A stretch of 64,000 nt of DNA from Notolepis coatsorum (taxonomy: Eukaryota > Chordata > Actinopteri > Aulopiformes > Paralepididae). The stretch is from NCBI GenBank assembly GCA_963971535.1, contig OZ020585.1:158233065-158297064 (forward strand), read 5' to 3'. Numbering within the stretch: position 1 is the first letter of the stretch; each line of letters begins with the position of its first letter. Both the position numbers and the translations under genes were made by a program. The notes under the pieces are model-generated. The model saw only the letters and a list, made by a program, of their open reading frames with translations. It searched no databases and was not told the origin of the DNA. Of this stretch, positions 9,719 to 52,429 are shown one piece after another.

Positions 9719-9792
9719 GTATCTTTCAAATGCCCAAGTTCAATTTGTATTTAGCATCACCAGGCATGCATAATAACAGATAATAATATCTA

Positions 9793-10907: not shown

Positions 10908-11014
<107 letters not shown>

Positions 11015-11756: not shown

Positions 11757-11759
<3 letters not shown>

Positions 11760-11840
<81 letters not shown>
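11760..11840. repeat. (TA)n microsatellite, U copy 3
   Basis: About 40 TA dinucleotides. Confidence 0.98.
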
Positions 11841-11845
<5 letters not shown>

Positions 11846-12168
11846 GTATCTTTCAAATGCCCGAGTTCAATTTGGATTTAGCATCACCAGGCATGCATAA
11901 TAACAGATAATAATATCTACTGTAATCGACTGTACTTTTTTTTATTTTTCTCATAGTGCAAGCATTTTGAAACTAATTTCAGATCTAGTTGTTGTTCCTA
12001 TATTCTAACAATATGGAGGAGAAACTAACTGCGTTTCAATATTTGTCAAATCGTTACCTTTTGTGGCTTATTATCAAGAATAATAACATTTATTGACATA
12101 TTCCATAATTCAACTCAGAACTTTGAACCCCCATAGAACTTGAAGGGAAATGTAGTTTGTTTGAAAAA

Positions 12169-12285
12169 ATGTCAACGCTCATCGACAGCCCTGAGTGCCC
12201 TCGACAAAATGCAAAATACAATTTGCGGTTTTTTTATATTTCCAAAATGGTCGCCGGCTCCGATAGACTTCTTCAAAATGAGAAG
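12169..12285 (+). CDS. Candidate first exon in U copy 3
   Basis: Same 39-codon frame and GTAAAA donor as at 5453-5569, with the promoter-like gggaaatgtagtt upstream. The full unit is kept here and at 4618-5665 but the 3' part holding this exon is missing from U copies 1 and 2. Product unknown. Confidence 0.35.
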
Positions 12286-12550
12286 GTAAAACCTTATTAT
12301 GACACTTTTAACCTATTGCTAACCTATTGCCAACCTAACGTTTTACATTCTACATGCTTTTGTGACATAGTAGATGTTAATCCCCAACTCTAGGAGGGGG
12401 GGGTAGGTACGCGCGTCGATCTAAAACATTATAGAGGGCGCCACCCAGACGGTCCCGTTCGTACCGCGCTCAGTGGCCCACCCCAAGGGCGTGAGACCCC
12501 TCTACCTATGCTTTGATCTATTCCGTTAACATCCCCCAGATATGAACGAG

Positions 12551-12600
12551 AATGGTGATTCCTGGTTAAATAAAGGTTAAATAAAAAAAATAAAAAAATA
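12551..12600 (+). repeat. Small A-rich LINE 3' remnant
   Basis: gattcctggttaaataaagg followed by aaataaa repeats: a typical fish CR1/L2-group LINE tail. It replaces ~30 bp present in the left copy of the large element (near 2400-2430), so it arrived after the two copies separated. Confidence 0.6.
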
Positions 12601-12978
12601 AAACTGACAAACTCCATCCCAGTTGCCCCATAAAAACCCTGTTTTAATGATGAGCAACCAAGGCGCACAAGCCTCATGCGTGATTCCTATCAGAAACACC
12701 CAGGGCCAGCACTATGTACACATCGAGACCCAAAACACATCAATGGATAGTCTAACAAGACACCAGATACCATTCCTCCAAGCCGCCTGGGGGAACGACA
12801 ATAAGCCGCTTTTTTTATTTTACATTTTTTCAGAAAAAATAATACGGACATGGGTCACATGTGACGCGGCTGAGGGAAACACCCCCCCGTCAACCACACT
12901 TCATAAGAGGGGACGGTGAGCGACGTACCCCTATGCCGGGGGGAAACCCATGACTCAACAGACCTGTAAGGCAAGGAG

Positions 12979-24619: not shown

Positions 24620-26875
24620 GTGCAGGAAGACCGCAACGCCGACCTGGAGTGCCAACGCTTACAACGCCTACAGCAGGAAGCACAAGATGCACGAGAAGCT
24701 ATAGCTACACGCCTCGACAGGCAGAGGCGGCTTAAGAAGAAGGAGCAGGAACTTCAAGTAGCCAAACTGGTCACCTCACTTCTTCAAGAGTCAAAGATGA
24801 GGGCTCTTGTGCGTGCAGCAGCATCTGAGCCGACCTATTCACCACCTGGACAACAGCACCACGTAGTGGCACCTGTGCCTCTAGCCCTTCCTACCGTACC
24901 ACAGAACGTGCATCCCCCGCCGGCTAATCCAGCCACCATCACTCCAGTGATACACCATCCAGCACAGGCGACGCCTCGCCCTGCTGCTCCCCCTGTGTCG
25001 CCAACCCAGCTCCCAACATGCCTGGTTCAATTGAGCAACCTACAATCTCACACAGGGCCCCCTGTAGCTACTCACAGTACCCAGAGTCCTACCTATGGTG
25101 CGACCATCCCTAGTACTCAACCCAGTACTCAACTCAGTACCCAACCCAGTACTCAACTCAGTACCCAACCTAGTACTCAACTCAGTACCCAACCTAGTAC
25201 TCAACTCAGTACCCAACCTAGTACTCAACTCAGTACCCAACCTAGTACTCAACCCAGTACTCAACCCAGTACTCAACTCAGTACCCAACCTAGTACTCAA
25301 CTCAGTACCCAACCTAGTACTCAACCCAGTACTCAACCCAGTACTCAACTCAGTACCCAACCTAGTACTCAACTCAGTACCCAACCTAGTACTCAACTCA
25401 GTACCCAACCTAGTACTCAACTCAGTACCCAACCTAGTACTCAACTCAGTACCCAACCTAGTACTCAACTCAGTACCCAACCTAGTACTCAACTCAGTAC
25501 CCAACCCAGTACTCAACTCAGTACCCAACCTAGTACTCAACCCAGTACTCAACCCAGTACTCAACTCAGTACTCAACCTAGTACTCAACCCAGTACTCAA
25601 CCCAGTACTCAACTCAGTACCCAACCTAGTACTCAACTCAGTACCCAACCTAGTACTCAACTCAGTACCCAACCTAGTACTCAACTCAGTACCCAACCTA
25701 GTACTCAACTCAGTACCCAACCCAGTACTCAACTCAGTACCCAGCCTAGTACTCAACCTAGTACTCAACCTAGTACTCAACCTAGTACTCAACCTAGTAC
25801 TCAACCTAGTACTCAACCTAGTACTCAGCCTAGTACTCAACCTAGCACCCAGCCTAGTACTCAATCTAGCACCCAACCTAGTACTCAACCCAGTACTCAA
25901 CCCAGTACTCAGCCTAGTACTCAGCCTAGTACTCAACCTAGTACTCAACCTAGTACTCAACCTAGTACTCAACCTAGTACTCAACCTAGTACTCAGCCTA
26001 GTACTCAACCTAGCACCCAGCCTAGTACTCAACCTAGTACTCAACCTAGTACTCAACCCAGTACTCGACTAACTCAACCTAGGACTTCTCCCAGTCCTCC
26101 GCTCCCTGCCGTTGAAGACCTCTCTTCACGGAAAGATCTCGTCCAAGCAACAGTCAGGTCCCTTCACGGTGCGGCTGATGCCCAGACCACCGATCAGCCT
26201 TATGAAGCAGCCGACTTCCTCAACGCTGAGAAGGTTCTCCTTAAACGAGCTCAACTGGACTCACTCCCAGAGGAGATCAAGGCCCTCAAGTCTGACCGAC
26301 CTCTTCCCCCAGACAGTCGTTTGGGCTCTCTATCTCCGGAGTATGAGAAGGCTACATGTCTCCTAGGTAGGCCGCACAGGGCCGAGAACTTGGAGATGGA
26401 TGACATTCACCCAATCGTCTTGGATCCACATCACCCCCTGACAAAGCTGATCATCCAAGATTATGATCAAACTCTTCTCCACCCCGGGCCTGAGAGGGTA
26501 TTCGTTGATCTTCAATCCCGATTCTGGGTTCTACGCGGAAGAGAAGCAATCCGCAAGCATCCGCACACCTGCCAAGAACGACATCTGCGGCGAGCAAAGC
26601 CCGACATGCCTAAAATGGCCGCCCTTCCACCCTGTCACCTGCGCCCCTACAAGCCCCCATTCTATTCCACCAGAGTAGACTGTTTTGGGCCATCTTACAC
26701 CAAGATAGGGCCCCGGAGAGGCAGAAGTGGAGGAAGGACGGCAAGAAACAGTCACTCGGCCCGGTGGCCCTCATCGTTGACCCACAGCCTCCTCGGGCAC
26801 TCTGGCCCGTTGGGAAGGTCACCCAGACGTACCCCGGAACTGACGAGCGTACCCGCACCGCAGCTGTCCAGGTGA
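24620..26875 (+). CDS. BEL/Pao gag-like / truncated integrase fusion with long STQ repeat, unit A
   Basis: 751 codons. Residues ~1-60 form a charged coiled-coil-like segment (LQRLQQEAQDAREAIATRL). Residues ~60-160 are Pro-rich. Residues ~165-483 are ~80 repeats of a 12-bp unit, STQP or STQL. The C-terminal ~200 residues are BEL/Pao integrase: DPHHPLTKLIIQDYD, LLHPGPERVF and HTCQERH form a zinc-binding H2C2 region, in which the second Cys pair is altered, then PPFYSTRVDCFGP. The DDE core is deleted; after it the frame moves off, and the integrase C-terminal tail (VALIVDPQPPRALWPVGKV) is in another frame at 26764-26979. RT and RNase H are missing between gag and integrase. A 9-bp deletion near 26365 relative to unit C removes VGG. 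Confidence 0.75.
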   Translation: MQEDRNADLECQRLQRLQQEAQDAREAIATRLDRQRRLKKKEQELQVAKLVTSLLQESKMRALVRAAASEPTYSPPGQQHHVVAPVPLALPTVPQNVHPPPANPATITPVIHHPAQATPRPAAPPVSPTQLPTCLVQLSNLQSHTGPPVATHSTQSPTYGATIPSTQPSTQLSTQPSTQLSTQPSTQLSTQPSTQLSTQPSTQLSTQPSTQPSTQPSTQLSTQPSTQLSTQPSTQPSTQPSTQLSTQPSTQLSTQPSTQLSTQPSTQLSTQPSTQLSTQPSTQLSTQPSTQLSTQPSTQLSTQPSTQPSTQPSTQLSTQPSTQPSTQPSTQLSTQPSTQLSTQPSTQLSTQPSTQLSTQPSTQLSTQPSTQLSTQPSTQPSTQPSTQPSTQPSTQPSTQPSTQPSTQPSTQPSTQSSTQPSTQPSTQPSTQPSTQPSTQPSTQPSTQPSTQPSTQPSTQPSTQPSTQPSTQPSTQPSTQPSTRLTQPRTSPSPPLPAVEDLSSRKDLVQATVRSLHGAADAQTTDQPYEAADFLNAEKVLLKRAQLDSLPEEIKALKSDRPLPPDSRLGSLSPEYEKATCLLGRPHRAENLEMDDIHPIVLDPHHPLTKLIIQDYDQTLLHPGPERVFVDLQSRFWVLRGREAIRKHPHTCQERHLRRAKPDMPKMAALPPCHLRPYKPPFYSTRVDCFGPSYTKIGPRRGRSGGRTARNSHSARWPSSLTHSLLGHSGPLGRSPRRTPELTSVPAPQLSR
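25111..26069 (+). repeat. 12-bp coding minisatellite (STQP/STQL), unit A
   Basis: About 80 tandem copies of agtactcaacc(t/c)-type units, arranged at first as alternating P/L pairs (24-bp higher order), later as P only. No frame on either strand contains a stop, so spurious ORFs of >300 codons appear in other frames. Confidence 0.95.
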
Positions 26876-26979
26876 AGGACAGAACATACCTGCGCCCTGT
26901 GTCCCGGCCGGTGCAGCTCCCGAGTCTCCCGGATACAGAGGACCCCCTGAGACTTTCCTGTTTAGTTCAAATGGTCTAA
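26764..26979 (+). pseudogene. BEL/Pao integrase C-terminal tail, unit A
   Basis: Encodes ALIVDPQPPRALWPVGKV and VQVKDRTYLRPVSRPVQLP, typical of the end of BEL/Pao integrase. It is out of frame with the preceding zinc-binding segment because of the internal deletion; the true fragment begins a few codons before the ATG. Copies at 33125-33340 and 37040-37255. Confidence 0.75.
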
Positions 26980-27000
26980 GTAGACTTTTGGGTGCGGCTG

Positions 27001-27955
27001 TGTAGGAAAGCCCGTTAATAGACTACTTTGTTCTGTAATAGCCCTTTAATATGTTGTTGTTGACAGGATAGGGTAATTGATTTATGCCAGTGTATTCGTT
27101 CAGCGTGATGTGCTAGTGTTGCACTCTAGTCTTCTGATAACGTTACTGGCCCTTTAAGAGTTTCCCTTTCTACCGTGAGCAAGCTGTTCTCTGTGTTGCT
27201 GCCTGATGGTGCGGCTGCTGCAGCAGTAATATCTGTCCCTTTGAGGAACGTGTGCGTAAATGACATGTGAGTACGGTACCTATGTTTAGTCCTGCTTAAT
27301 TCATCCCTTCAGCTTACTCTACCTTTATAGTGTGTCTCTGCTGATCCATTCCTGTTGACGTTGTTCCCTCTGTTATTGAAACACTGCGCCGTTAGCTTAG
27401 CTACACGTTAGCCAACCTAGGTTCCCTCTGCTATGATATGCTGCCTGCTAGTGATGCTGCGTGGTTAGCTTAGCCGCACGTGAGCTAGCCTAGGCTATAT
27501 AACTCACTCACTACTTCTAGTGAATAGAATGTATCTTTACACCCGGTTTACAGTCCGCCTACCTATATATTGTTTACATGCACTGCATGAGTAATCCCCC
27601 TGCATAGGCTATGTAGGTTATCTATAATAACTCCGGTTAAGTGAATGTCTTGGTTACTAGTAGTTGCACTGTATTGCTAATGAATATTATTGCAGCTATA
27701 GACCACATGTTTATGACATTATGTTTATGTGCGCCACTACTGTGTTTACTAATGTATACTGTATTGTACTCCTTTGTGTTTACTAATGTATACTGTATTG
27801 TATTCCCTTGTAGACAACCACACACACCTTTCTGTTCCCAATACAACCAATACCTGCAGCACGCCTCTGTGTGATTCTTTAATCGGAGTTACAACGCCAT
27901 AGTGTCCGCCAGCTCTATCAAACGCAACCCGTGGAGGCCCTAGCCCTCCGTGTCA
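27001..27955 (+). repeat. BEL/Pao LTR 2 (inner)
   Basis: Starts tgtaggaaag, ends gtgtca. Shares catgtg and tctctg variants with LTR 3. Confidence 0.93.
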
Positions 27956-27992
27956 TGGTCCTTCGAGCCGGATAGAGCTCCTCCAAGACGCT

Positions 27993-28226
27993 ATGGCAGA
28001 CCAGGACACCACAGAGACCACCGCTCACCCGCAGAGAGAGCGCAACCTACCAAGCCACCTACGTGACCTCGAAGTGGGCTGTGAACCTGAACTCAGTACT
28101 CAGATCAGTCAGTACTCGGATCAGTCAGTACTCGGATCAGTCAGTACTCGGATCAGTCAGTACCCGGATCAGTCAGTACTCGGATCAGTCAGTACTCAGA
28201 TCAGTCAATTCCTAGACTCACCATAA
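27993..28226 (+). CDS. BEL/Pao gag N-terminal fragment, unit B
   Basis: Same 77-codon frame as 24159-24392, with one noted change (Y to C at codon 30). Confidence 0.6.
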   Translation: MADQDTTETTAHPQRERNLPSHLRDLEVGCEPELSTQISQYSDQSVLGSVSTRISQYPDQSVLGSVSTQISQFLDSP

Positions 28227-28453
28227 GGTCAGGTGTCGGCTCCCATCGTTCATACCCGGCGAGTGAGGCAAGGGACCCGTCTGAAGGTAGTAGGTTCTCA
28301 CATCTGTCACTTCCTAGACCCACCATAAGGTCAGGTGTTGGCTCCCATCGTTCATCTGGGAGTGTACACCGACCACATGCTCTCTCACCAGTCCAGGAAG
28401 CTATCCTTCAGGAGCACATCCGCCACCTGGAGCTTGAGGAGCTACAGCGCCAG

Positions 28454-30661
28454 GTGCAGGAAGACCGCAACGCCGACCTGGAGTGCCAACGCTTACAACG
28501 CCTACAGCAGGAAGCACAAGATGCACGAGAAGCTATAGCTACACGCCTCGACAGGCAGAGGCGGCTTAAGAAGAAGGAGCAGGAACTTCAAGTAGCCAAA
28601 CTGGTCACCTCACTTCTTCAAGAGTCAAAGATGAGGGCTCTTGTGCGTGCAGCAGCATCTGAGCCGACCTATTCACCACCTGGACAACAGCACCACGTAG
28701 TGGCACCTGTGCCTCTAGCCCTTCCTACCATACCACAGAACGTGCATCCCCCGCCGGCTAATCCAGCCACCATCACTCCAGTGATACACCATCCAGCACA
28801 GGCGACGCCTCGCCCTGCTGCTCCCCCTGTGTCGCCAACCCAGCTCCCAACATGCCTGGTTCAATTGAGCAACCTACAATCTCACACAGGGCCCCCTGTA
28901 GCTACTCACAGTACCCAGAGTCCTACCTATGGTGCGACCATCCCTAGTACTCAACCCAGTACTCAACTCAGTACCCAACCCAGTACTCAACTCAGTACCC
29001 AACCTAGTACTCAACTCAGTACCCAACCTAGTACTCAACTCAGTACCCAACCTAGTACTCAACTCAGTACCCAACCTAGTACTCAACCCAGTACTCAACC
29101 CAGTACTCAACTCAGTACCCAACCTAGTACTCAACTCAGTACCCAACCTAGTACTCAACCCAGTACTCAACCCAGTACTCAACTCAGTACCCAACCTAGT
29201 ACTCAACTCAGTACCCAACCTAGTACTCAACTCAGTACCCAACCTAGTACTCAACTCAGTACCCAACCTAGTACTCAACTCAGTACCCAACCTAGTACTC
29301 AACTCAGTACCCAACCTAGTACTCAACTCAGTACCCAACCCAGTACTCAACTCAGTACACAACCTAGTACTCAATCCAGTACTCAACCCAGTACTCAACT
29401 CAGTACTCAACTCAGTACTCAACCCAGTACTCAACCCAGTACTCAACTCAGTACCCAACCTAGTACTCAACTCAGTACCCAACCTAGTACTCAACTCAGT
29501 ACCCAACCTAGTACTCAACTCAGTACCCAACCTAGTACTCAACTCAGTACCCAGCCTAGTACTCAACCTAGTACTCAACCTAGTACTCAACCTAGTACTC
29601 AACCTAGTACTCAGCCTAGTACTCAACCTAGTACTCAACCTAGTACTCAACCTAGTACTCAACCCAGTACTCAGCCTAGTACTCAGCCTAGTACTCAACC
29701 TAGTACTCAACCTAGTACTCAACCTAGTACTCAGCCTAGTACTCAACCTAGCACCCAGCCTAGCACCCAGCCTAGTACTCAATCTAGCACCCAACCTAGT
29801 ACTCAACCCAGTACTCAACCCAGTACTCAGCCTAGTACTCAGCCTAGTACTCAACCTAGTACTCAACCTAGTACTCAACCTAGTACTCAACCTAGTACTC
29901 AACCTAGTACTCAGCCTAGTACTCAACCTAGCACCCAGCCTAGTACTCAACCTAGTACTCAACCTAGTACTCAACCCAGTACTCGACTAACTCAACCTAG
30001 GACTTCTCCCAGTCCTCCGCTCCCTGCCGTTGAAGACCTCTCTTCACGGAAAGATCTCGTCCAAGCAACAGTCAGGTCCCTTCACGGTGCGGCTGATGCC
30101 CAGACCACCGATCAGCCTTATGAAGCAGCCGACTTCCTCAACGCTGAGAAGGTTCTCCTTAAACGAGCTCAACTGGACTCACTCCCAGAGGAGATCAAGG
30201 CCCTCAAGTCTGACCGACCTCTTCCCCCAGACAGTCGTTTGGGCTCTCTATCTCCGGAGTATGAGAAGGCTACATGTCTCCTCAGAGTAGGCGGTAGGCC
30301 GCACAGGGCCGAGAACTTGGAGATGGATGACATTCACCCAATCGTCTTGGATCCACATCACCCCCTGACAAAGCTGATCATCCAAGATTATGATCAAACT
30401 CTTCTCCACCCCGGGCCTGAGAGGGTATTCGTTGATCTTCAATCCCGATTCTGGGTTCTACGCGGAAGAGAAGCAATCCGCAAGCATCCGCACACCTGCC
30501 AAGAACGACATCTGCGGCGAGCAAAGCCCGACATGCCTAAAATGGCCGCCCTTCAAGTTCAAGTTCAAGTTTCTTTAATAGTTGTCATACAGAAGTACAG
30601 AATACTTTTGTACAAAATGCTTCTTACTGTTGCGCTCCAGAGACTGTGCATGACAAGATAA
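28454..30661 (+). CDS. BEL/Pao gag-like / integrase fusion, unit B, cut by a Rex1 LINE
   Basis: 735 codons, same architecture as 24620-26875. The STQ array (28944-29987) is longer than in unit A. The integrase remnant ends at KMAALQ, where the Rex1 3' tail begins; the last ~20 codons are LINE sequence. The VGG residues missing in unit A are kept (RVGGRPHR). Confidence 0.72.
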   Translation: MQEDRNADLECQRLQRLQQEAQDAREAIATRLDRQRRLKKKEQELQVAKLVTSLLQESKMRALVRAAASEPTYSPPGQQHHVVAPVPLALPTIPQNVHPPPANPATITPVIHHPAQATPRPAAPPVSPTQLPTCLVQLSNLQSHTGPPVATHSTQSPTYGATIPSTQPSTQLSTQPSTQLSTQPSTQLSTQPSTQLSTQPSTQLSTQPSTQPSTQPSTQLSTQPSTQLSTQPSTQPSTQPSTQLSTQPSTQLSTQPSTQLSTQPSTQLSTQPSTQLSTQPSTQLSTQPSTQLSTQPSTQLSTQPSTQSSTQPSTQLSTQLSTQPSTQPSTQLSTQPSTQLSTQPSTQLSTQPSTQLSTQPSTQLSTQPSTQPSTQPSTQPSTQPSTQPSTQPSTQPSTQPSTQPSTQPSTQPSTQPSTQPSTQPSTQPSTQPSTQPSTQPSTQSSTQPSTQPSTQPSTQPSTQPSTQPSTQPSTQPSTQPSTQPSTQPSTQPSTQPSTQPSTQPSTQPSTRLTQPRTSPSPPLPAVEDLSSRKDLVQATVRSLHGAADAQTTDQPYEAADFLNAEKVLLKRAQLDSLPEEIKALKSDRPLPPDSRLGSLSPEYEKATCLLRVGGRPHRAENLEMDDIHPIVLDPHHPLTKLIIQDYDQTLLHPGPERVFVDLQSRFWVLRGREAIRKHPHTCQERHLRRAKPDMPKMAALQVQVQVSLIVVIQKYRILLYKMLLTVALQRLCMTR
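28944..29987 (+). repeat. 12-bp coding minisatellite (STQP/STQL), unit B
   Basis: About 87 units; shares unusual variants (agtacacaacc, consecutive actcaactc pairs) with unit C. Confidence 0.95.
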
Positions 30662-32987
30662 GTATGAAATAAAAACATAGTAAAAATAGTAAAAATTAGA
30701 AGTAAAAAAAGAGGTCACAGTGTTCAGTTTAGACATATGTACAATGTTCGTAGACGTAGTTACCATACAATATACAATACTGTGCAGTGTACTAATATAC
30801 AATACTATACTATATAGTGCAAGGCATAAATGGACGAGGTGCAGTTTAGGTACAATTCACAGTAGGTGTACGAGTTGTAGTGCAAATCCTTTATCAATAA
30901 ATATAAAGTGTAAGTGTGTTTGTGTGATCTAAAGTGTGGAGAGTGGGTGCTGCAGTGTGTTGTTTGTTTGAGTGAGTGTGTGCGTGTGGGTGTGTGTGCT
31001 GTGTGCATTTGATGGTTGTTGCATAGTGATTATTGTTCGTTTAGCGATTATTGTTCGTTTAGCAGCCTGATGGCCTGGGGATAGAAGCTCCTTCTGAGTC
31101 TTTCTGTGCTCGCCATAAGACTCCGGTATCGCTTGCCTGACGGCAGCAGTTCAAAGAGGCAGTTGTTCGGGTGGCTCGAGTCCTTAATAATTCTCTTAGC
31201 CTTCCCCTTGCACCGCTTGTTGTAAATGTTCTGGAGGGTGGGAAGCCCCCCTCTAATTGTGCGTTCGGCTGAACGTGTCACTCTTTGTAGTCTGCTACGG
31301 TCTTTTGCAGTGCTATTCCCAAACCAGGAGGTGATGTTGCCGGTCAGGATGCTCTCTATTGTACATGAGTAGAAGTTCCTAAGGATCTTCTGACTGACTT
31401 GGAACTTCCTTAGGCGCCTGAGGAAGTAGAGGCGTTGTCGTGCCTTCTTCACAACACTGTCAATGTGTGTGGTCCATGTCAAGTCCTCGGATATGTGGGC
31501 TCCGAGGTACTTGAAACTGTTCACTCTCTCAACTGGTGCCCCGTCGATGCTGAGGGGGCTGTAGTCCTTGACCCCCGACCTCCTGAAGTCCACAATCATC
31601 TCTTTTGTTTTGCTGACGTTCAGGGAGAGGCAGTTCTCCTGACACCACTGTGACAGGTTCTCTACCTCTTCCAGGTAGGCCCTTTCGTCGTTGGCAGAGA
31701 TCAGGCCCACCACTACTGTGTCATCAGCAAATTTGATGATGGTGTTGTTGTTCCGCTGTGCTACGCAGTCATGTGTGTACAGGGAGTAGAGGAGGGGGCT
31801 CAGAACACAGCCCTGGGGGGCCCCTATGTTGAGCGTGATGGATGAGGAGGTGCAGTTGCCGGCTCTTACCACCTGGGGTCTGCCCGTCAGGAAGTCCAGG
31901 ACCCACTGGCACAGGTCATAGTTCAAGCCCAGGTCCCTGAGCTTGGCTATGAGTTTGGAGGGGACTATGGTATTGAATGCTGAGCTGTAGTCGATGAACA
32001 GCATTCTCACATAGTTCCCCTGCCTCTTGTCCAGATGTGATGCTGCTGTGTGCAGCACATGGGCTATGGCGTCCTCCGTGGACCTGTTGGGGCGATATGC
32101 AAATTGCAGAGGGTCCAGGTTGATGGGGAGGGAGGAACAGATGTAGCCCTTCACTAGCTTCTCAAAGCACTTCATGGCTATGGAGGTGAGGGCTACAGGG
32201 CGGTAGTCATTGAGGCAAGCGGGCGTAGATTTTTTGGGTACAGGGATGATGGTGGACTTCTTCAGACAGGTGGGGATGACGGCCTGTTCCAAGGACAGGT
32301 TGAAGATGTCAGTGAATACCGGGGCCAGTTGGTCGGCACAGACTTTTAGGACGCGGCCGGGGATGCCGTCCGGTCCTGCTGCCTTCCTGATATCCACTTT
32401 TTTAAAGATCCGTCTCACCTCATGCTCTGTTACCCTGAACACTGATTCTCCATCAGCAGACCCCCCCCCCCCCCATTGCCGTGGTTTGTAGGCTGGTGTT
32501 GTTGTTCACAGCCTCAAACCTCGCATAGAAGGAGTTGAGATCATTTGCTAAGGAGATGTCACTGTTCAGTTTGAGGGGGGTTCCTTTGTAGTCTGTCATT
32601 GTTCTGAGGCCCTGCCACATGCCTCTAGAGTCAGCCTGTTCAAACTGAAGTTCAACTTTATCCCTGTAACGCCGTTTTGCCTCTATTACTGCTCTCCTGA
32701 CGTTGTATCTTGCCATCTTGTGTTCTTCCATGTTGCCTGTCACCAGCCCGGTGTTGTATGCTGATGTGCGCACTTTCAGAGCCTCACGGACGGATTTGTC
32801 TACCCAGGGCTTTTGATTTGGGTAGATATTAATTTTGGTGGTGGGGATTATTACTTCTACCTGAGTACAGACATAGTCAATCACCGTTTCGGTGTATTCG
32901 TTAATATTGGCTGTGTTATCACGGAATACACTCCATTCTGTGCTTCCCAGCACTGCTTGGAGTGACTCCACTGACGTCACGGCCCTT
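30555..32987 (-). mobile_element. Rex1 LINE inserted in BEL unit B
   Basis: The tail on the plus strand is caagttcaagttcaagttt. A 7-bp candidate target duplication gcccttc flanks it (30548-30554 region and 32982-32990 region), and the BEL sequence continues with cttccaccctgtcacctgcg as in units A and C. Confidence 0.85.
31048..32980 (-). pseudogene. Rex1 LINE reverse transcriptase with one frameshift
   Basis: Minus strand. 32980-32453 encodes the endonuclease-RT linker ([36 protein letters not shown]); the frame then breaks in a C-run at ~32461-32474. The RT proper is open from 32442 to 31048: [38 protein letters not shown], the catalytic FADD and the C-terminal [14 protein letters not shown]. 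It is closely related to the copy at 20111-21862 but extends further 5'. The endonuclease domain is absent. Homopolymer slippage (or a sequencing error in the C-run) is the likely cause of the break. Confidence 0.88.
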
Positions 32988-33124
32988 CCACCCTGTCACC
33001 TGCGCCCCTACAAGCCCCCATTCTATTCCACCAGAGTAGACTGTTTTGGGCCATCTTACACCAAGATAGGGCCCCGGAGAGGCAGAAGTGGAGGAAGGAC
33101 GGCAAGAAACAGTCACTCGGCCCG

Positions 33125-33340
33125 GTGGCCCTCATCGTTGACCCACAGCCTCCTCGGGCACTCTGGCCCGTTGGGAAGGTCACCCAGACGTACCCCGGAA
33201 CTGACGAGCGTACCCGCACCGCAGCTGTCCAGGTGAAGGACAGAACATACCTGCGCCCTGTGTCCCGGCCGGTGCAGCTCCCGAGTCTCCCGGATACAGA
33301 GGACCCCCTGAGACTTTCCTGTTTAGTTCAAATGGTCTAA
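33125..33340 (+). pseudogene. BEL/Pao integrase C-terminal tail, unit B
   Basis: As at 26764-26979; lies on the far side of the Rex1 insertion. Confidence 0.75.
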
Positions 33341-33361
33341 GTAGACTTTTGGGTGCGGCTG

Positions 33362-34316
33362 TGTAGGAAAGCCCGTTAATAGACTACTTTGTTCTGTAAT
33401 AGCCCTTTAATATGTTGTTGTTGACAGGATAGGGTAATTGATTTATGCCAGTGTATTCGTTCAGCGTGATGTGCTAGTGTTGCACTCTAGTCTTCTGATA
33501 ACGTTACTGGCCCTTTAAGAGTTTCCCTTTCTACCGTGAGCAAGCTGTTCTCTGTGTTGCTGCCTGATGGTGCGGCTGCTGCAGCAGTAATATCTGTCCC
33601 TTTGAGGAACGTGTGCGTAAATGACATGTGAGTACGGTACCTATGTTTAGTCCTGCTTAATTCATCCCTTCAGCTTACTCTACCTTTATAGTGTGTCTCT
33701 GCTGATCCATTCCTGTTGACGTTGTTCCCTCTGTTATTGAAACACTGCGCCGTTAGCTTAGCTACACGTTAGCCAACCTAGGTTCCCTCTGCTATGATAT
33801 GCTGCCTGCTAGTGATGCTGCGTGGTTAGCTTAGCCGCACGTGAGCTAGCCTAGGCTATATAACTCACTCACTACTTCTAGTGAATAGAATGTATCTTTA
33901 CACCCGGTTTACAGTCCGCCTACCTATATATTGTTTACATGCACTGCATGAGTAATCCCCCTGCATAGGCTATGTAGGTTATCTATAATAACTCCGGTTA
34001 AGTGAATGTCTTGGTTACTAGTAGTTGCACTGTATTGCTAATGAATATTATTGCAGCTATAGACCACATGTTTATGACATTATGTTTATGTGCGCCACTA
34101 CTGTGTTTACTAATGTATACTGTATTGTACTCCTTTGTGTTTACTAATGTATACTGTATTGTATTCCCTTGTAGACAACCACACACACCTTTCTGTTCCC
34201 AATACAACCAATACCTGCAGCACGCCTCTGTGTGATTCTTTAATCGGAGTTACAACGCCATAGTGTCCGCCAGCTCTATCAAACGCAACCCGTGGAGGCC
34301 CTAGCCCTCCGTGTCA
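33362..34316 (+). repeat. BEL/Pao LTR 3 (inner)
   Basis: Very close to LTR 2; starts tgtaggaaag, ends gtgtca. Confidence 0.93.
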
Positions 34317-34353
34317 TGGTCCTTCGAGCCGGATAGAGCTCCTCCAAGACGCT

Positions 34354-34587
34354 ATGGCAGACCAGGACACCACAGAGACCACCGCTCACCCGCAGAGAGA
34401 GCGCAACCTACCAAGCCACCTACGTGACCTCGAAGTGGGCTATGAACCTGAACTCAGTACTCAGATCAGTCAGTACTCGGATCAGTCAGTACTCGGATCA
34501 GTCAGTACTCGGATCAGTCAGTACCCGGATCAGTCAGTACTCGGATCAGTCAGTACTCAGATCAGTCAATTCCTAGACTCACCATAA
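34354..34587 (+). CDS. BEL/Pao gag N-terminal fragment, unit C
   Basis: Identical frame to 24159-24392. Confidence 0.6.
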   Translation: MADQDTTETTAHPQRERNLPSHLRDLEVGYEPELSTQISQYSDQSVLGSVSTRISQYPDQSVLGSVSTQISQFLDSP

Positions 34588-34814
34588 GGTCAGGTGTCGG
34601 CTCCCATCGTTCATACCCGGCGAGTGAGGCAAGGGACCCGTCTGAAGGTAGTAGGTTCTCACATCTGTCACTTCCTAGACCCACCATAAGGTCAGGTGTT
34701 GGCTCCCATCGTTCATCTGGGAGTGTACACCGACCACATGCTCTCTCACCAGTCCAGGAAGCTATCCTTCAGGAGCACATCCGCCACCTGGAGCTTGAGG
34801 AGCTACAGCGCCAG

Positions 34815-37151
34815 GTGCAGGAAGACCGCAACGCCGACCTGGAGTGCCAACGCTTACAACGCCTACAGCAGGAAGCACAAGATGCACGAGAAGCTATAGC
34901 TACACGCCTCGACAGGCAGAGGCGGCTTAAGAAGAAGGAGCAGGAACTTCAAGTAGCCAAACTGGTCACCTCACTTCTTCAAGAGTCAAAGATGAGGGCT
35001 CTTGTGCGTGCAGCAGCATCTGAGCCGACCTATTCACCAGCTGGACAACAGCACCACGTAGTGGCACCTGTGCCTCTAGCCCTTCCTACCGTACCACAGA
35101 ACGTGCATCCCCCGCCGGCTAATCCAGCCACCATCACTCCAGTGATACACCATCCAGCACAGGCGACGCCTCGCCCTGCTGCTCCCCCTGTGTCGCCAAC
35201 CCAGCTCCCAACATGCCTGGTTCAATTGAGCAACCTACAATCTCACACAGGGCCCCCTGTAGCTACTCACAGTACCCAGAGTCCTACCTATGGTGCGACC
35301 ATCCCTAGTACTCAACCCAGTACTCAACTCAGTACCCAACCCAGTACTCAACTCAGTACCCAACCTAGTACTCAACTCAGTACCCAACCTAGTACTCAAC
35401 TCAGTACCCAACCTAGTACTCAACTCAGTACCCAACCTAGTACTCAACCCAGTACTCAACCCAGTACTCAACTCAGTACCCAACCTAGTACTCAACTCAG
35501 TACCCAACCTAGTACTCAACCCAGTACTCAACCCAGTACTCAACTCAGTACCCAACCTAGTACTCAACTCAGTACCCAACCTAGTACTCAACTCAGTACC
35601 CAACCTAGTACTCAACTCAGTACCCAACCTAGTACTCAACTCAGTACCCAACCTAGTACTCAACTCAGTACCCAACCTAGTACTCAACTCAGTACCCAAC
35701 CCAGTACTCAACTCAGTACACAACCTAGTACTCAACCCAGTACTCAACCCAGTACTCAACTCAGTACTCAACTCAGTACTCAACCCAGTACTCAACCCAG
35801 TACTCAACTCAGTACCCAACCTAGTACTCAACTCAGTACCCAACCTAGTACTCAACTCAGTACCCAACCTAGTACTCAACTCAGTACCCAACCTAGTACT
35901 CAACTCAGTACCCAGCCTAGTACTCAACCTAGTACTCAACCTAGTACTCAACCTAGTACTCAACCTAGTACTCAGCCTAGTACTCAACCTAGTACTCAAC
36001 CTAGTACTCAACCCAGTACTCAGCCTAGTACTCAGCCTAGTACTCAACCTAGTACTCAACCTAGTACTCAACCTAGTACTCAGCCTAGTACTCAACCTAG
36101 CACCCAGCCTAGCACCCAGCCTAGTACTCAATCTAGCACCCAACCTAGTACTCAACCCAGTACTCAACCCAGTACTCAGCCTAGTACTCAGCCTAGTACT
36201 CAACCTAGTACTCAACCTAGTACTCAACCTAGTACTCAACCTAGTACTCAACCTAGTACTCAGCCTAGTACTCAACCTAGCACCCAGCCTAGTACTCAAC
36301 CTAGTACTCAACCTAGTACTCAACCCAGTACTCGACTAACTCAACCTAGGACTTCTCCCAGTCCTCCGCTCCCTGCCGTTGAAGACCTCTCTTCACGGAA
36401 AGATCTCGTCCAAGCAACAGTCAGGTCCCTTCACGGTGCGGCTGATGCCCAGACCACCGATCAGCCTTATGAAGCAGCCGACTTCCTCAACGCTGAGAAG
36501 GTTCTCCTTAAACGAGCTCAACTGGACTCACTCCCAGAGGAGATCAAGGCCCTCAAGTCTGACCGACCTCTTCCCCCAGACAGTCGTTTGGGCTCTCTAT
36601 CTCCGGAGTATGAGAAGGCTACATGTCTCCTCGGAGTAGGCGGTAGGCCGCACAGGGCCGAGAACTTGGAGATGGATGACATTCACCCAATCGTCTTGGA
36701 TCCACATCACCCCCTGACAAAGCTGATCATCCAAGATTATGATCAAACTCTTCTCCACCCCGGGCCTGAGAGGGTATTCGTTGATCTTCAATCCCGATTC
36801 TGGGTTCTACGCGGAAGAGAAGCAATCCGCAAGCATCCGCACACCTGCCGAGAACGACATCTGCGGCGAGCAAAGCCCGACATGCCTAAAATGGCCGCCC
36901 TTCCACCCTGTCACCTGCGCCCCTACAAGCCCCCATTCTATTCCACCAGAGTAGACTGTTTTGGGCCATCTTACACCAAGATAGGGCCCCGGAGAGGCAG
37001 AAGTGGAGGAAGGACGGCAAGAAACAGTCACTCGGCCCGGTGGCCCTCATCGTTGACCCACAGCCTCCTCGGGCACTCTGGCCCGTTGGGAAGGTCACCC
37101 AGACGTACCCCGGAACTGACGAGCGTACCCGCACCGCAGCTGTCCAGGTGA
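34815..37151 (+). CDS. BEL/Pao gag-like / integrase fusion, unit C
   Basis: 778 codons, the longest of the three. Same layout: coiled-coil-like N-terminus, Pro-rich linker, STQ array (35305-36336), integrase zinc-binding segment, deleted DDE core. It keeps GVGGRPHR and reads HTCRERH where units A and B read HTCQERH. The tail frame continues separately at 37040-37255. Confidence 0.75.
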   Translation: MQEDRNADLECQRLQRLQQEAQDAREAIATRLDRQRRLKKKEQELQVAKLVTSLLQESKMRALVRAAASEPTYSPAGQQHHVVAPVPLALPTVPQNVHPPPANPATITPVIHHPAQATPRPAAPPVSPTQLPTCLVQLSNLQSHTGPPVATHSTQSPTYGATIPSTQPSTQLSTQPSTQLSTQPSTQLSTQPSTQLSTQPSTQLSTQPSTQPSTQPSTQLSTQPSTQLSTQPSTQPSTQPSTQLSTQPSTQLSTQPSTQLSTQPSTQLSTQPSTQLSTQPSTQLSTQPSTQLSTQPSTQLSTQPSTQPSTQPSTQLSTQLSTQPSTQPSTQLSTQPSTQLSTQPSTQLSTQPSTQLSTQPSTQLSTQPSTQPSTQPSTQPSTQPSTQPSTQPSTQPSTQPSTQPSTQPSTQPSTQPSTQPSTQPSTQPSTQPSTQPSTQSSTQPSTQPSTQPSTQPSTQPSTQPSTQPSTQPSTQPSTQPSTQPSTQPSTQPSTQPSTQPSTQPSTRLTQPRTSPSPPLPAVEDLSSRKDLVQATVRSLHGAADAQTTDQPYEAADFLNAEKVLLKRAQLDSLPEEIKALKSDRPLPPDSRLGSLSPEYEKATCLLGVGGRPHRAENLEMDDIHPIVLDPHHPLTKLIIQDYDQTLLHPGPERVFVDLQSRFWVLRGREAIRKHPHTCRERHLRRAKPDMPKMAALPPCHLRPYKPPFYSTRVDCFGPSYTKIGPRRGRSGGRTARNSHSARWPSSLTHSLLGHSGPLGRSPRRTPELTSVPAPQLSR
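35305..36336 (+). repeat. 12-bp coding minisatellite (STQP/STQL), unit C
   Basis: About 86 units; differs from unit B mainly by gain or loss of a 12-bp unit and single substitutions. Confidence 0.95.
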
Positions 37152-46806: not shown

Positions 46807-47699
46807 CTAATCTACGAATTCCAATCTGGCTTCAGAACATCCCACTCCACTGACACATGCCTTCTCTCTTTAAACGACCACATCAAACAAGAGGTGGACG
46901 CGGGCAAATACTGCGGCATGGTCATGCTGGACCTACAAAAGGCCTTCGACACTGTCAATCACACCATTCTGATTGACAAGCTAAAAGCAATTGGTTTTGA
47001 TAGTCTATCAGTGAGCTGGATGCAATCCTACCTGGAGGGGAGAGAGCAGATGGTGGAGGTAAACGGTACCCTATCCCCCCCCCTCACAGTAAACTGTGGT
47101 GTTCCACAAGGAAGCATACTAGGTCCGCTACTGTTCCTAATTTATGCAAATGACATGTCGTCAGCTTGTGACTGCAACTTGTTCCTGTTTGCGGACGACT
47201 CAGCCCTGCTGGTCTCTGACAAGAACAAGTTACAGGTTGAAAAAACCCTCAGCTCAGAACTAGGCAAAATCTGCATATGGCTCGCTGATAACAAACTATC
47301 ATTACACATGGGCAAAACAGAGTCCATTCTCTTCGGTTCAAATAACAAACTCAGCAAGACCGACGGCTTCTCAGTTACAGTGGGTGACAATATTGTCACA
47401 AGGAAAGAAGATATTACCTACCTGGGTTCCATCCTAGAGGCAAATCTTTCCTGTGACAAAATGGCATCCAATGTAATAAAAAAAGTCAACCAACGAACAC
47501 GATTCTTGTACCGGATCTCCTCACTGGTAAACAAGAATACCCTGAAGACTCTAGCAGGAGCACTCATTCAAGGGTACTACGACTATGCTTGCACCTCATG
47601 GTACCAAAGCACCTCAAAGGCGCTAAAAACAAAATTACAAACATCTCAAAACAAACTGGTCAGACTACTGCTTGACCTTACTCCTAGAACCCACCTCAT
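46807..47699 (+). CDS. LINE reverse transcriptase, 5' piece of a split ORF
   Basis: Open from ~46810 (YEFQSGFRTSHSTDTCLL) with LDLQKAFDTVNH, GVPQGSILGPLLF, the catalytic FADD, LSLHMGKTESILFG and a thumb region; the frame runs into the TIR element and stops at 47758. The endonuclease is absent. Family by similarity: the same LINE type as the one at 62727-64000 is possible but not proven. Confidence 0.85.
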
Positions 47700-48040
47700 T
47701 AGTTGGGTCAAGAACCAACATTCTGTGACCATTCTCTGGCTAAGATGTTTTGATGATTGATTTGACTTCTATGGACCTTTTATAAAATATTTAGCCCCCG
47801 TGTCCCTCCGAAAAATCCCGGCATTTTTTGTCAGATGGCCAAATCCAAAATACCTGCCGACGCCATCTTGAAAAATTTACTTTTGATCCAGAGAACCTAG
47901 AATCATGTATGAATACACTTTTTTGTGTAAGTCAACCATGACGATTCCAATTCTGACATCAGTTTGACTCTATGACATCAATTTGACCCAGAAATCCAAG
48001 ATGGCCACCATATAGTAGAGCGAAAATGTAACTTTTAATG
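47700..48040 (+). repeat. Left long TIR of the 4.4-kb element
   Basis: Pairs with ~51715-52077, e.g. ttagcccccgtgtccctc against gagggacacgggggctaa, and aatccaagatggccaccat against the right arm. Confidence 0.88.
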
Positions 48041-48208
48041 TCAAAACCAATTTTACCATGGTACTGCTGTACTTTAAACAAACTACCTTCATAAGGATCT
48101 CAGCAAAATAATTTATGAATGTACAGTATGATAAGATAACTAATTATACTTCAAAATACGCTCTCTTAAATAGCTGTAACTTGAACAGATTAACAATGAA
48201 ACCACTTT

Positions 48209-48415
48209 TTTTTTCTTTTTTTTTTACTTAATTTTCTTTTAACTTTATAGCATTTTCAGCTTTTTCTGGCCACGCAGGACCGATAGAGGGAGAGAGGGAG
48301 AACGGGAGGAGAGGTAGGGAAGACATGCAGCAAATGGTCGCCGGGACTGGGAAACGAACCCGGGACGACCGCTTCGCGACTCAGCACGCTATGTGGTGTG
48401 CTACTGGAGCGCCCC
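48209..48415 (-). mobile_element. tRNA-derived SINE inserted in the 4.4-kb element
   Basis: Minus strand: ggggcgctccagtagcacac (A-box area), B box ggttcgtttcc (48350-48360), body, then an A-rich tail (T-run on the plus strand at 48209-48230). Flanked by a perfect 17-bp duplication aacaatgaaaccacttt (48192-48208, 48416-48432), the mark of target-primed insertion. Confidence 0.85.
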
Positions 48416-48499
48416 AACAATGAAACCACTTTAAACATGTCATGATCAGTCCGAATCAGAGCATTCTGCCTCACTAGATTCTGAATCATCAGATTCCAA

Positions 48500-50764
48500 T
48501 TAATCACCCCTCCTCCTCCATACATCATCATCTCCCTTCTCATCATCATCCTCCTCACTCTCCTCTTCCTCACTTTCTTCAGCTGGCCCTGGTGCAGGTA
48601 GATGTGTTGGGAGAGCAGGTCGTGTGTGGCGGACAGGGCGACAGCGACCACCCACCAGCTCCCAGCCATGTCCGAGTGGCGAAGGGTGTCGCTTCAGGGA
48701 GGGGTGGCGCACTAGATATGCCAAGTAGTTGGCACGGAGGCAGTGTTGGCGTAGGCTATCTGCATCTGGAGGGAGATGGATGAATGCTTTGTTCTTCATT
48801 CTCTTCCACTTTGTGGCACGGGCCTCAGCCATGGTGCTACTCTTCTTGTCGCCATAAATAACATGTCGTGTGAACTCGAACAGCTCCTCTAGCACCTCCT
48901 CCTCAAGGTCAAGGCTATCTCCACACCGCGAGAGCAGCCGTCGTGCCATAGGGCTCTTTGCCACCTTGTCATCCACCGACAACTTACCCTTGTCATAGAA
49001 GCCTGAATTGGCATCACAGCCTGTAATGCAGTGTAGCTGCACAATACAATCTGCCATCTCCTCAGTAACCAGGCCACGGCAGAAGACCGTGTTCTGCTTT
49101 CTCTTGATGCAGAGCATACCGGGCAGCTGTTGAGAGATGACCGCTGCCATGACATAGGCATCGGTGTCGGCTGCATCAATGACCACAGGGCCACTGTAGC
49201 CTGACTCACGTAGAACTGTGTAAGCAGAGAAGAGGATGGTGTCAGCCTCAGACTGGTCAAAGCTGTAGTTCTGCATTGGTTGCTGGGTTGACAAGTTGGT
49301 GCAGTGGGAGCCAACAGAGTAGACGATCTCTGTATCTACACCCTGTGCAACAAGGTCAGTCAGATAGCTGCATATAACTTTTTGTAGCCGCTCCTTGTTG
49401 CTGACGCTACACAGCAGTGTTTTGAACTCTCTGGCAGAGGGGAAGGGGTCGCCCAGCTTCATGTAGGTGTTGGGGACATGTACCTTACCTTGTACCCGCA
49501 GATCTCGCTCATCATCTTTAGTTGAGTATGCTGCGTCGTACGGGTCATTTACACAGAAAATACGGTCAGCATCACCATGGCGGGCAAGGATGATGGATGA
49601 TACCTTGTGGACATAGTCCAACCACTTGTATGGGGTGCCATCTTGTGTCTGCCGATCTTCTGCTGATGGGGTTGCCATCCTCCAGATCATGCCCATGTCG
49701 ACAAGAGCGGTGTAGGGTACTTGCAGATCTACAGATTGGAGAGAGAGCTTCTGAATGAGCTTGCTCTTCTGTGTCTTCCTATATGTGCCATTGGAGTTGA
49801 ATAAGGCCACACATTCCTCGACAACACGATGTTCCAGCAACTCTGAGAGATTCACAAGTTGACTGACCTCAACCAGGTCGATCACTGCCTTGAGAGCACT
49901 CCGCTCCATCTCAGCAGCTCTTGCTTTGAGTTCCTCCCCGGGCTTCTCCATGCAGGGCTGCTTGGCAAATGTCAAGCGTTTGCTCAGAGGGACAGGTGCA
50001 TGGAGGGAGGTTTTCTTACTGAACACTCTGTCTTTCAAGAAGCTGGTCAACTTCTCCTCTCCCACAGCATAGGCTGAGTTGAAGTCCGTGATGAGTTCAT
50101 CAGAGGCAGGCATGGCTGACTGTAGGGTGCGGAGGGTGGGTGAGGCTGGATCAAATGGGAAGGAATCAAACTCATGCATGCATGCGACCAGGTCCTGCAC
50201 GCGCTGCTCATCTTCTCTCATCCTTTTCGGACCACATTCTATGTGCTTCCTCTTGGCTTTTTTGTGTGTGGCCAGGGCATTGTGAGCCACCCGGATCTTG
50301 GCCAAATTGTTCACATTTCTGGAGTGCACCAGCAGCTGCTTCTCATTCTGGAGGATGGAGAGCCAGCCAGACTTCATTTTGCTGCCCTTGTTCATTGTAC
50401 ACTCGATCCACATGTCCCAGGCCATGTTGGAGTAGGGGTTGCCTGTGATGGACTGAGTGAAGTCAGTACGAAGGAAGGCGACCCGATCAGCAGGGAGAGC
50501 TGTCAGCATTGCCCAGAAGTCAGGCAGCCACCTTCCATACCTATTGTTGTCGTACACTACCATCCATGGCAGCATGGCACGCAGAGAGCTGACATACTCA
50601 TCCAAGTTGCAGATATGTACTGCATGCACATTCTGCATGAGTGCATCCGTCATAGACAGGAAGTCCCTCCAGTAGTCCGCCATGTCACTGGCCTCCACCT
50701 GGGTGAATAAATTGGTGATGAGGCTCTCGAGTATCATCCTCCAGTGCCGCATGTGCAGCTGCAC
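48500..50764 (-). CDS. Large element-encoded protein with acidic PIN/FEN1-like motifs
   Basis: 754 codons on the minus strand. From memory, it resembles an uncharacterised family common in fish and invertebrate genomes. Visible blocks: a D-rich segment NDPYDAAYSTKDDERDLR (about 407-423; family pattern FDgY..STK..E..R), EAD (506-508), DAADTDAYVM (530-539) and TGCDANSGFYDKGK (581-594; family pattern TGCDTTS.F.GKGK), then an acidic Glu/Asp tail (~730-750). The order D ... EAD ... DxD ... GCD is like the metal-binding residues of PIN/FEN1-type nucleases; that fold is my inference. The N-terminal part lies upstream in other frames (50685-51062, 50983-51300), so the copy is frameshifted. Could be the transposase or an accessory nuclease of the element; the long TIRs support a mobility role. 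Confidence 0.7.
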   Translation of the reverse strand: MQLHMRHWRMILESLITNLFTQVEASDMADYWRDFLSMTDALMQNVHAVHICNLDEYVSSLRAMLPWMVVYDNNRYGRWLPDFWAMLTALPADRVAFLRTDFTQSITGNPYSNMAWDMWIECTMNKGSKMKSGWLSILQNEKQLLVHSRNVNNLAKIRVAHNALATHKKAKRKHIECGPKRMREDEQRVQDLVACMHEFDSFPFDPASPTLRTLQSAMPASDELITDFNSAYAVGEEKLTSFLKDRVFSKKTSLHAPVPLSKRLTFAKQPCMEKPGEELKARAAEMERSALKAVIDLVEVSQLVNLSELLEHRVVEECVALFNSNGTYRKTQKSKLIQKLSLQSVDLQVPYTALVDMGMIWRMATPSAEDRQTQDGTPYKWLDYVHKVSSIILARHGDADRIFCVNDPYDAAYSTKDDERDLRVQGKVHVPNTYMKLGDPFPSAREFKTLLCSVSNKERLQKVICSYLTDLVAQGVDTEIVYSVGSHCTNLSTQQPMQNYSFDQSEADTILFSAYTVLRESGYSGPVVIDAADTDAYVMAAVISQQLPGMLCIKRKQNTVFCRGLVTEEMADCIVQLHCITGCDANSGFYDKGKLSVDDKVAKSPMARRLLSRCGDSLDLEEEVLEELFEFTRHVIYGDKKSSTMAEARATKWKRMKNKAFIHLPPDADSLRQHCLRANYLAYLVRHPSLKRHPSPLGHGWELVGGRCRPVRHTRPALPTHLPAPGPAEESEEEESEEDDDEKGDDDVWRRRGD

Positions 50765-51300
50765 AGGGTTCTTGGGAGAGACTCATATCTCTCAGAATCT
50801 CAAGGTTCTCCCTTGTCTCATCAGCCAGGTTGGGCATGAGCCTCCCCTTTACCAGCTGACTCATGAGTGCCTCATAGATGAGCCTCAAGCAACGCAGCCC
50901 CCTCTTGTAATGTTTGTGTTTCAGTGCACGGTCGACGGAGCCCTCTGCAATAGCTTTTCCTGCCACAAGTACATCTCCTAGCTCACTCCCCTTGTAGCGC
51001 TTGTAGATAGCGCTCATCATCACACACGGTGTGGAAGGGACCAAGAAAGGGTACAATGTCATGGTACTTGTTTGGGTTCTCGGCCTTGAGCAGAGTGATG
51101 AGGACGTACACAGGATGATCTCCCACTAAGAAGGCGAAGGGCATGTGCTTAGTTGCGATGATGGTAGACAGCTTCTCCATGATGTCATTCACAACTGACT
51201 TGTTGGGCGGTTTATTGTAAGATGTATGAAAATAAGCCTTGCTCTTCCTCTGCTCCATATTCAAGCCAGCGTGAAACCCATTGTATGAAGGGATAGTGCA
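50685..51300 (-). pseudogene. N-terminal part of the same protein, two frame breaks
   Basis: Frame 51300-50983: PNKSVVNDIMEKLSTII, then FLVGDHPVYVLITLLKAENP and FLGPFH (family pattern GDqPvY ... lGpFH). Near 51020 the frame shifts; the continuation AIYKRYKGSELGDVLVAGKA and RGLRCLRLIYEALMSQL is in the 51062-50685 frame. A second shift near 50770 leads into the main ORF. Upstream of 51300 only a (CA)n tract and the promoter-side TIR region are present, so a 5' exon may be missing or unrecognised. Confidence 0.65.
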
Positions 51301-51343
51301 TGCATGCACGCACGTACGCACACACACATGTGCACACGCACGT

Positions 51344-51345
<2 letters not shown>

Positions 51346-51410
<65 letters not shown>
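51346..51410. repeat. (CA)n microsatellite
   Basis: Long CA tract directly upstream of the coding part; creates an artefactual VCVC reading on the minus strand. Confidence 0.97.
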
Positions 51411-51411
<1 letters not shown>

Positions 51412-51714
51412 GCAGTCTATTGAAGAAGAAGGCCTGGATGAGCGAGGTCAACAGGAGTTCTTCATGTCAAGGAATGTCGAGATGGCGTGGTCCAAGATAC
51501 CTTTTGAAACAGAAGGCTGAGCACAAGCTCAGAACATCATCAAAATAACTCATGAAAGAAACAGCTTTCGAACACAACACAAGGGTTAACAAACCCCAAA
51601 CACAGGGCTACAATGACTATATTAGCTAACTAATTGTTGTTGCTAGCTAGCTAGCTATTGGGAAAGTTGTTAGTCTGAAGCCCTGCCCAAACACCAAATC
51701 TTACTTTCCCATTC

Positions 51715-52077
51715 AAAAGTTACATTTTCGCTCTGCTGTCTCTTTCTACATTTTTGCTCTACTGGATGGTGGCCATCTTGGATTTCTGGGTTAAATTGAT
51801 GTCATAGAGTCAAACTAATGTCAGAATTGGAATCGTCATGGTTGACTTACACAAAAAAGTGTATTCATACATGATTCTAAGTGCTCTGGATCAAAAGTTA
51901 ATTTTTCAAGATGGCGTCAGCAGATATTTTCGATTTGGCCATCTGACAAAAAATGCCGGGATTTTTCTGAGGGACACGGGGGCTAAATATTTTATAAAAG
52001 GTCCATAGAAGTCAAATCAATCATCAAAACATCTTAGCCAGAGAATGGTCACAGAATGTTGGTTCTTGACCCAACTA
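51715..52077 (-). repeat. Right long TIR of the 4.4-kb element
   Basis: See left TIR. Confidence 0.88.
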
Positions 52078-52080
52078 CAT

Positions 52081-52429
52081 CCCTGCCCACTTTGACAACC
52101 TAGGATGGCTTAGAGTAGACGACAGAGTACAGCAACTTGCAATGGGCCTGGTCTACAAGATACACTACACGACCAAGGTACCCATGTACATGACAAAATA
52201 CTTCCCAAAGGTCAGTGAATACCACGATCACAACACCAGAGGGAGCTCCACAAATCATGTTAAACCCAGATTCGGCTCAAACAAGGGACTAAACACGTTT
52301 CGCAATTATGCCACATCAATGTGGAACGCCCTACCCAAAGCTGTAAAGGAATGTGAATCACTACACACTTTCAAAAACACTCTCAAAAAACACCTAAGGG
52401 AGACTGCAACTCGAAACTGGCCCCTGTAA
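52081..52429 (+). CDS. LINE reverse transcriptase, 3' piece of the split ORF
   Basis: Continues in frame from 47699: PAHFDNLGWLRVDDRVQQL, YKIHYTTKVPMYM, HNTRGSS and the C-terminal FRNYATSMWNALPKAVKE ... FKNTLKKHL, ending RNWPL-stop. Such a W-N-LP ... FK-LK-hL end is typical of Jockey/CR1-superfamily LINEs. The UTR (52430-52950) has several C-runs and a (ttca)n tail. Confidence 0.82.

Follow-up and report, generated by a model that had tools for sequence, protein, structure and literature searches.

The closest described systems to the element reported here are DNA transposons of the AcademX lineage, the nuclease of which is of the XPG type. Kojima 2020 (Mob DNA 11:15) is reportedly the source for this lineage of the Academ superfamily (Repbase). 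According to PMC10045372, AcademX elements generate target site duplications (TSDs) of 3–4 bp and AcademH elements TSDs of 9–10 bp, and TSD length is seemingly tied to the nuclease (AcademX) or helicase (AcademH) that is encoded. KolobokE, KolobokP and KolobokD likewise combine a DDD/E transposase with an extra nuclease in the same transposon, but PMC9587614 gives these nucleases different folds (lambda-exonuclease-like, His-Me finger and DEDDh) and gives TTAA as the Kolobok TSD, with TSDs of 3–5 bp at solo repeats of KolobokP. Here we describe a minus-strand insertion of 4378 bp at positions 47700–52077 of a 64 000-nucleotide stretch of the Notolepis coatsorum genome (contig OZ020585.1, positions 158 233 065–158 297 064; ‘the window’, whose numbering is used throughout unless a copy or protein is named). 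It is very probably an AcademX-type, N-terminally deleted and non-autonomous copy from a family whose proteins would combine a DDE core with a FEN1/EXO1-type nuclease.

Structure of the element and its target site

The insertion at 47700–52077 is a transposable element. Its terminal inverted repeats (TIRs) lie at 47700–48030 (plus strand, on the 3′ side of the gene) and 51747–52077 (minus strand, on the 5′ side), are 331 nt long each and are identical at 319 positions, with the outermost 109 bp perfect. The element begins with TAGTTGGG and ends with CCCAACTA, the gene being on the minus strand, and the junctions read ...CACCTCAT / TAGTTGGG ... CCCAACTA / CATCCCTG.... A first-pass annotation of the window, made from the sequence alone, had already claimed exact ends, and both end positions were borne out by the arm alignment and by other copies; the long, diverged arms that it described were also recovered, with their length corrected from about 340 bp to 331 nt.

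The element splits the reverse-transcriptase open reading frame (ORF) of a long interspersed nuclear element (LINE), of which the left part occupies 46894–47699 and the right part 52078–52429, both on the plus strand as judged from LINE homologues. Duplication of the flanking triplet CAT (47697–47699 and 52078–52080) had been regarded as proven by the restored LINE frame; this argument was dropped, as the frame is open with one CAT and with two alike. The duplication itself was upheld by the spacing in LINE homologues. After exclusion of 97 of the 120 listed proteins, which were under the score limit on either flank, all 23 that spanned the junction with a good score on both sides showed the single-codon spacing, and the 3-bp CAT duplication is therefore secure. 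The LINE segment 46894–47694 was 92–94 % identical, over 56–71 % of the query, to proteins from the Antarctic fishes Dissostichus and Pogonophryne (P0187, P0193 and P0203).

Other copies in the genome

The genome searched comprised 3.42 Gb in 4787 contigs. With the left arm as query, 626 first-look candidates were obtained before scoring, and 40 scored matches, including that of the window itself, were 99–100 % identical over at least 330 of the 331 query bases. Stretches were fetched around 21 of the 39 non-window matches, two of which belong to L024, mostly by match quality, and given this selection the fetched copies are probably the youngest. A facing second TIR was found in 20 of the 21 (it was partial only in L026, and interrupted by an insert in L025). 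All 20 paired copies started with TAGTTGGG, ended with CCCAACTA and contained part or most of the coding region, nuclease included. An exact 3-bp direct duplication flanked 19 of them and a 4-bp duplication none, and the duplicated triplets varied (TTT, TAT, TGT, ATA, CAG, TCA etc.). The genome-wide check that the first-pass annotation had proposed, for copies with the same TIRs and 3-bp duplications, was positive. In L014 a partial second copy of the TIR (4546–4815) abuts the right end; the outer end was used, which gives a 3-bp duplication, whilst the inner end gives no TSD. L024 (201–3899) has mutually identical arms (331/331), an internal deletion and the flanking triplets TAG and CAT.

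Comparison of the arms across the 20 copies led us to drop arm divergence as a clock. The gene-5′ arm could be compared without gaps in 16 copies, being nearer to the gene-5′ arm of the window by at least six positions in 10, about equidistant from both window arms in three (L010, L011 and L013) and nearer to the gene-3′ arm in the remaining three (L021, L024 and L029). The gene-3′ arms, by which the copies had been selected, matched that of the window at 327–331 of 331 positions in all 20. The divergence between the two window arms is mostly not a matter of insertion age.

An insert with a T-run, resembling a short interspersed nuclear element (SINE), is present on the minus strand at 48209–48415 between 17-bp direct repeats (48192–48208 and 48416–48432). 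Both repeats were exact in 13 of the 20 other copies and one was exact in the other seven, and the insert therefore probably predates the spread of the element. No second copy of the insert was found within the window, and no tRNA was identified inside the insert by ARAGORN.

The predicted nuclease domain

The C-terminal half of the encoded product is predicted to be a FEN1/EXO1-type 5′-nuclease. The domain corresponds to ORF residues 332–697 (48674–49771, minus strand), and the structure prediction that had been suggested as a check gave the fold of the FEN1/EXO1/XPG 5′-nuclease superfamily. The D...EAD...DxD...GCD blocks that had been noticed at the outset are present and conserved among relatives: two aspartates (49697–49699 and 49544–49546) are followed by an EAD motif (49241–49249, Glu and Asp), a DxD motif (49160–49168) and the Asp of a TGCD motif (49013–49015), after which comes GxGK, all on the minus strand. 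In alignment A3, which comprised 37 of 183 listed proteins chosen mostly by length, the seven acidic metal-binding residues were found in 36 rows; the remaining row, P0090, ends in the domain after the first Asp. Residues were matched to FEN1 numbering by motif order; the gateway residues are K93/R100 in FEN1 and K85/R92 in EXO1. The nuclease was visible in the fold search only, as a Pfam scan of the window ORFs and sequence searches against solved structures gave nothing significant. Identity to FEN1/EXO1/XPG/GEN1 5′-nucleases was 9–16 % in the matches listed, and the domain differs from these enzymes in being fused to a transposase-like region.

The transposase-like region

The protein had been thought at first to stand in place of a recognizable transposase. 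This did not hold for its long relatives, in which the nuclease is preceded by a DUF6589 region whose D, D and E are invariant. Among eight relatives scanned with Pfam, DUF6589 was placed on the middle region above the cut-off in seven, and no helicase was listed at E ≤ 1 in any. The conserved residues of A3 include a series of Cys and His (among them C6, C10, C14, H62, C65, C128, C131, H191 and C194), followed in order by D459/D461, D634, H663 and E875 and, C-terminal to E875, by the nuclease residues D1110, D1161, E1259, D1261, D1286, D1288 and D1337. All 37 rows agree at the D, D and E of the DUF6589 region, and this set and the nuclease set are both complete in all but the truncated P0090. 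In the window copy the second candidate DDE aspartate (VGDHP) lies at 51118–51120 and the candidate glutamate (WIE) at 50402–50404, both on the minus strand. The N-terminal Cys/His motifs are probably DNA-binding zinc fingers.

A structural model of P0028, a relative of 1152 aa (mean predicted local distance difference test score 80.8), contained strands at residues 89–95, 112–119 and 230–239, a helix at 245–261, a strand at 267–271, a helix, a strand at 293–297 and a further helix, a succession that follows the RNase-H order. The first strand has D94 at its end, D272 comes directly after the fourth and E514 is located beyond a helical insertion. From this modelled topology and the invariance of the residues, we infer that the upstream region is a DDE core. 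One comparison of the full-length model was taken up by the nuclease domain. In a search with the whole model the transposase rows were weak: ISCth4 was listed at E 0.23, and RAG1/2 entries made up 10 of 50 listed rows (E 0.56–2.0).

A broken gene and the spread of a deleted form

In tblastn with relatives, coding homology extended along the minus strand between 51297 and 48449 and was divided among three frames (51297 to about 51022, 51056 to 50733 and 50731 to 48449), with frameshifts near 51030–51056 and at 50731 and an in-frame stop at 48500–48502. Of the one large minus-strand protein reported by the first-pass annotation, the coding strand stands but not the single ORF, the first ~11 residues of which, up to GTG at 50764, are outside the frame of the family. 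A deletion at about 51297 has removed some 570 residues from the N-terminus (P0101 numbering), among them the Cys/His motifs and the first candidate catalytic Asp, and other copies begin at residue 574–575 of P0101. The alignment of the window copy with L021 (5477 bp) also stops at 51297, where the deletion junction adjoins a tract rich in (CA)n (51300–51410). Sub-threshold Rfam matches to microRNAs and small nucleolar RNAs on or across this tract were taken as chance.

Ten of the 20 paired copies aligned end to end with the window copy at 96–99.6 % identity, and the deleted form has therefore spread. A search with the N-terminal DNA gave 68 first-look candidates versus 626 for the TIR arm, a rough sign only that the deleted form is commoner than the longer one, as the two query sequences are of unequal length and the arm occurs twice per element. 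Amongst 13 short copies (78 pairs), mean synonymous divergence (dS) was 0.0138 and mean non-synonymous divergence (dN) 0.0101, a ratio of 0.73; against L021 the ratio was 0.53–0.85. Selection on the coding remnant looks mostly relaxed by this sequence measure, and the idea of strong selection on the open truncated frames of about 990 aa was weakened by the ratio of 0.73. The window copy would be a non-autonomous derivative, mobilized in trans.

Relatives and their distribution

Single-frame relatives of 1499–1555 aa made up 26 of the 37 rows of A3, and the fusion of DUF6589 with the nuclease recurred in 36 rows, the most distant relatives being about 35 % identical to the product of the window copy. 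A tree of 28 proteins placed the window copy in a well-supported clade of 18 rows, comprising fish (Dissostichus, Synaphobranchus and others), five proteins from the snail Nucella, a sea spider and a crab; much of the branching within it is weakly settled, and it includes short rows and rows with long branches. The five Nucella proteins (P0009, P0025, P0032, P0041 and P0087) are 96.5–99.7 % alike and 69–88 % like the fish copies compared. Three others (P0034, P0059 and P0055) are 36–53 % like these five, mostly about 45 %. The closeness of the first Nucella lineage to the fish copies suggests horizontal transfer, and the sequences make this, together with recent multi-copy activity, likely. 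In Nucella lapillus the family forms two lineages, which resemble each other at about 45 % and have each amplified recently (96–99.7 % within).

Four Dissostichus eleginoides entries (P0002, P0003, P0018 and P0095) bear the names U3 small nucleolar RNA-associated protein 10, leucine-tRNA ligase or dynein; they probably represent transposon sequences to which host-gene names were wrongly given. P0104 is filed under a bacterial metagenome-assembled genome (Sedimenticola sp.), but its place among the corals in the tree makes animal contamination probable. Searches of viral contigs by protein, alignment and TIR pattern gave no relatives, nor did those of genome contigs, plasmids and phages.

Assignment and alternative explanations

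The element is most probably an AcademX-type transposon, an assignment made by published features and not by sequence comparison with Academ; the type is thus already named, and the element adds a well-documented member. Its 3-bp TSDs lie within the 3–4 bp of AcademX and both encode a nuclease, whereas AcademH has a helicase in place of the nuclease and TSDs of 9–10 bp (PMC10045372). The window copy differs from AcademX in being a deletion derivative. Varied 3-bp duplications also set the element apart from Kolobok with its 4-bp TTAA. PIF/Harbinger TSDs are 3 bp long and of the form TWA, a form seen here in one of 20 duplications including that of the window (TTA in L025). That the family instead represents a distinct, unnamed superfamily, resembling AcademX only in its nuclease and 3-bp TSDs, is in our judgement improbable. 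It would fit with the lack of a sequence link to Academ, with the fact that none of the listed database matches bears the name Academ (most are unnamed), and with literature searches in which no paper was found naming DUF6589; against it, the element matches published features of Academ/AcademX in the length of its TSDs, in its nuclease and in its overall length, the longer copies being close in length to the bivalve Academ mean. In the literature searched, no paper was found in which Academ, XPG and transposon occurred together.

It is less probable again that the FEN1-like nuclease is itself the transposase and the DUF6589 region merely structural or DNA-binding. The firm fold and complete active site of the nuclease would favour this, as would the lack of a significant solved-transposase match upstream in the whole-model search, but the D, D and E at RNase-H positions are invariant in every aligned relative, a stagger fixed at 3 bp is characteristic of strand transfer by DDE enzymes, and we know of no 5′-nuclease that joins strands. 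The capture of a host FEN1/EXO1-like gene on a single occasion by an unrelated TIR element, which the fold shared with cellular repair enzymes might bring to mind, is scarcely credible given a coding region in all 20 paired copies and a fusion kept in 36 of 37 relatives as distant as about 35 % identity.

Several observations nevertheless weigh against our reading of the element as a trans-mobilized, AcademX-type derivative from a family with a DDE core. The paired copy L024 has no TSD, and TSDs were observed in a single genome only. E514 of the P0028 model adjoins a low-confidence stretch (515–528), and a search made with the whole model, nuclease included, matched no solved transposase significantly. 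Among the fetched copies, those that keep N-terminal coding sequence (L021, L029 and L024) are broken as well. The dN/dS ratios are below 1, both among the short copies and against L021, and stop-free frames of at least 960 aa (964–1045 aa) occurred in 16 of the best 30 protein matches, eight of them running from residue 574–575 to the protein end and so including the second D, the E and the whole nuclease. Some role for the truncated product is possible.

Proposed mechanism and implications

In the AcademX-type reading, the long form of the family encodes one protein of ~1500 aa with Cys/His motifs, a DDE/RNase-H-like core (DUF6589) that is split by a helical insertion, and a 5′-nuclease at the C-terminus. 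Most probably the core would bind and cut the TAGTTGGG ends and attach them to the target strands at sites 3 bp apart, which would account for the 3-bp duplication, and the nuclease would process branched or flapped DNA arising from excision or gap repair. Intact copies, present or past, would mobilize the 4.3-kb derivatives in trans. DDE chemistry, zinc binding and the role of the nuclease are, like trans-mobilization, proposed on these grounds.

In Tn7 the DDE enzyme TnsB is paired with an unrelated nuclease, TnsA. By analogy, the DDE core could cut the transferred 3′ strands and the nuclease cut or trim the non-transferred 5′ strands, a division of labour that we regard as rather unlikely; TnsA is a separate protein with a restriction-endonuclease fold, whereas the nuclease of the element is fused, and the likeness in strand sharing is conjecture. 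If true, it would allow excision without a hairpin and insertion leaving exactly 3 bp, as a eukaryotic single-protein counterpart of TnsA–TnsB built on a repair-enzyme fold.

The family offers a concrete architecture for a transposase bearing its own FEN1/EXO1-type nuclease, and the reason for a DDE transposon to retain a structure-specific nuclease is now directly testable. DUF6589, an unannotated Pfam family, gains a likely role as the catalytic core of a transposase. Family assignment would also help to clean gene sets, as fish annotations carry host-gene names for proteins of the family.

Other features of the window

Positions 24953–36353 contain three arrays of a 24-bp unit with 40–44 copies each (25112–26070, 28946–29982 and 35307–36353), which are located inside long, mutually similar ORFs with abundant ‘STQPSTQL’ repeats. 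Positions 1–14803 form a large imperfect inverted duplication, with many arm pairs 92–98 % identical between about 1–4210 and 7455–14803.

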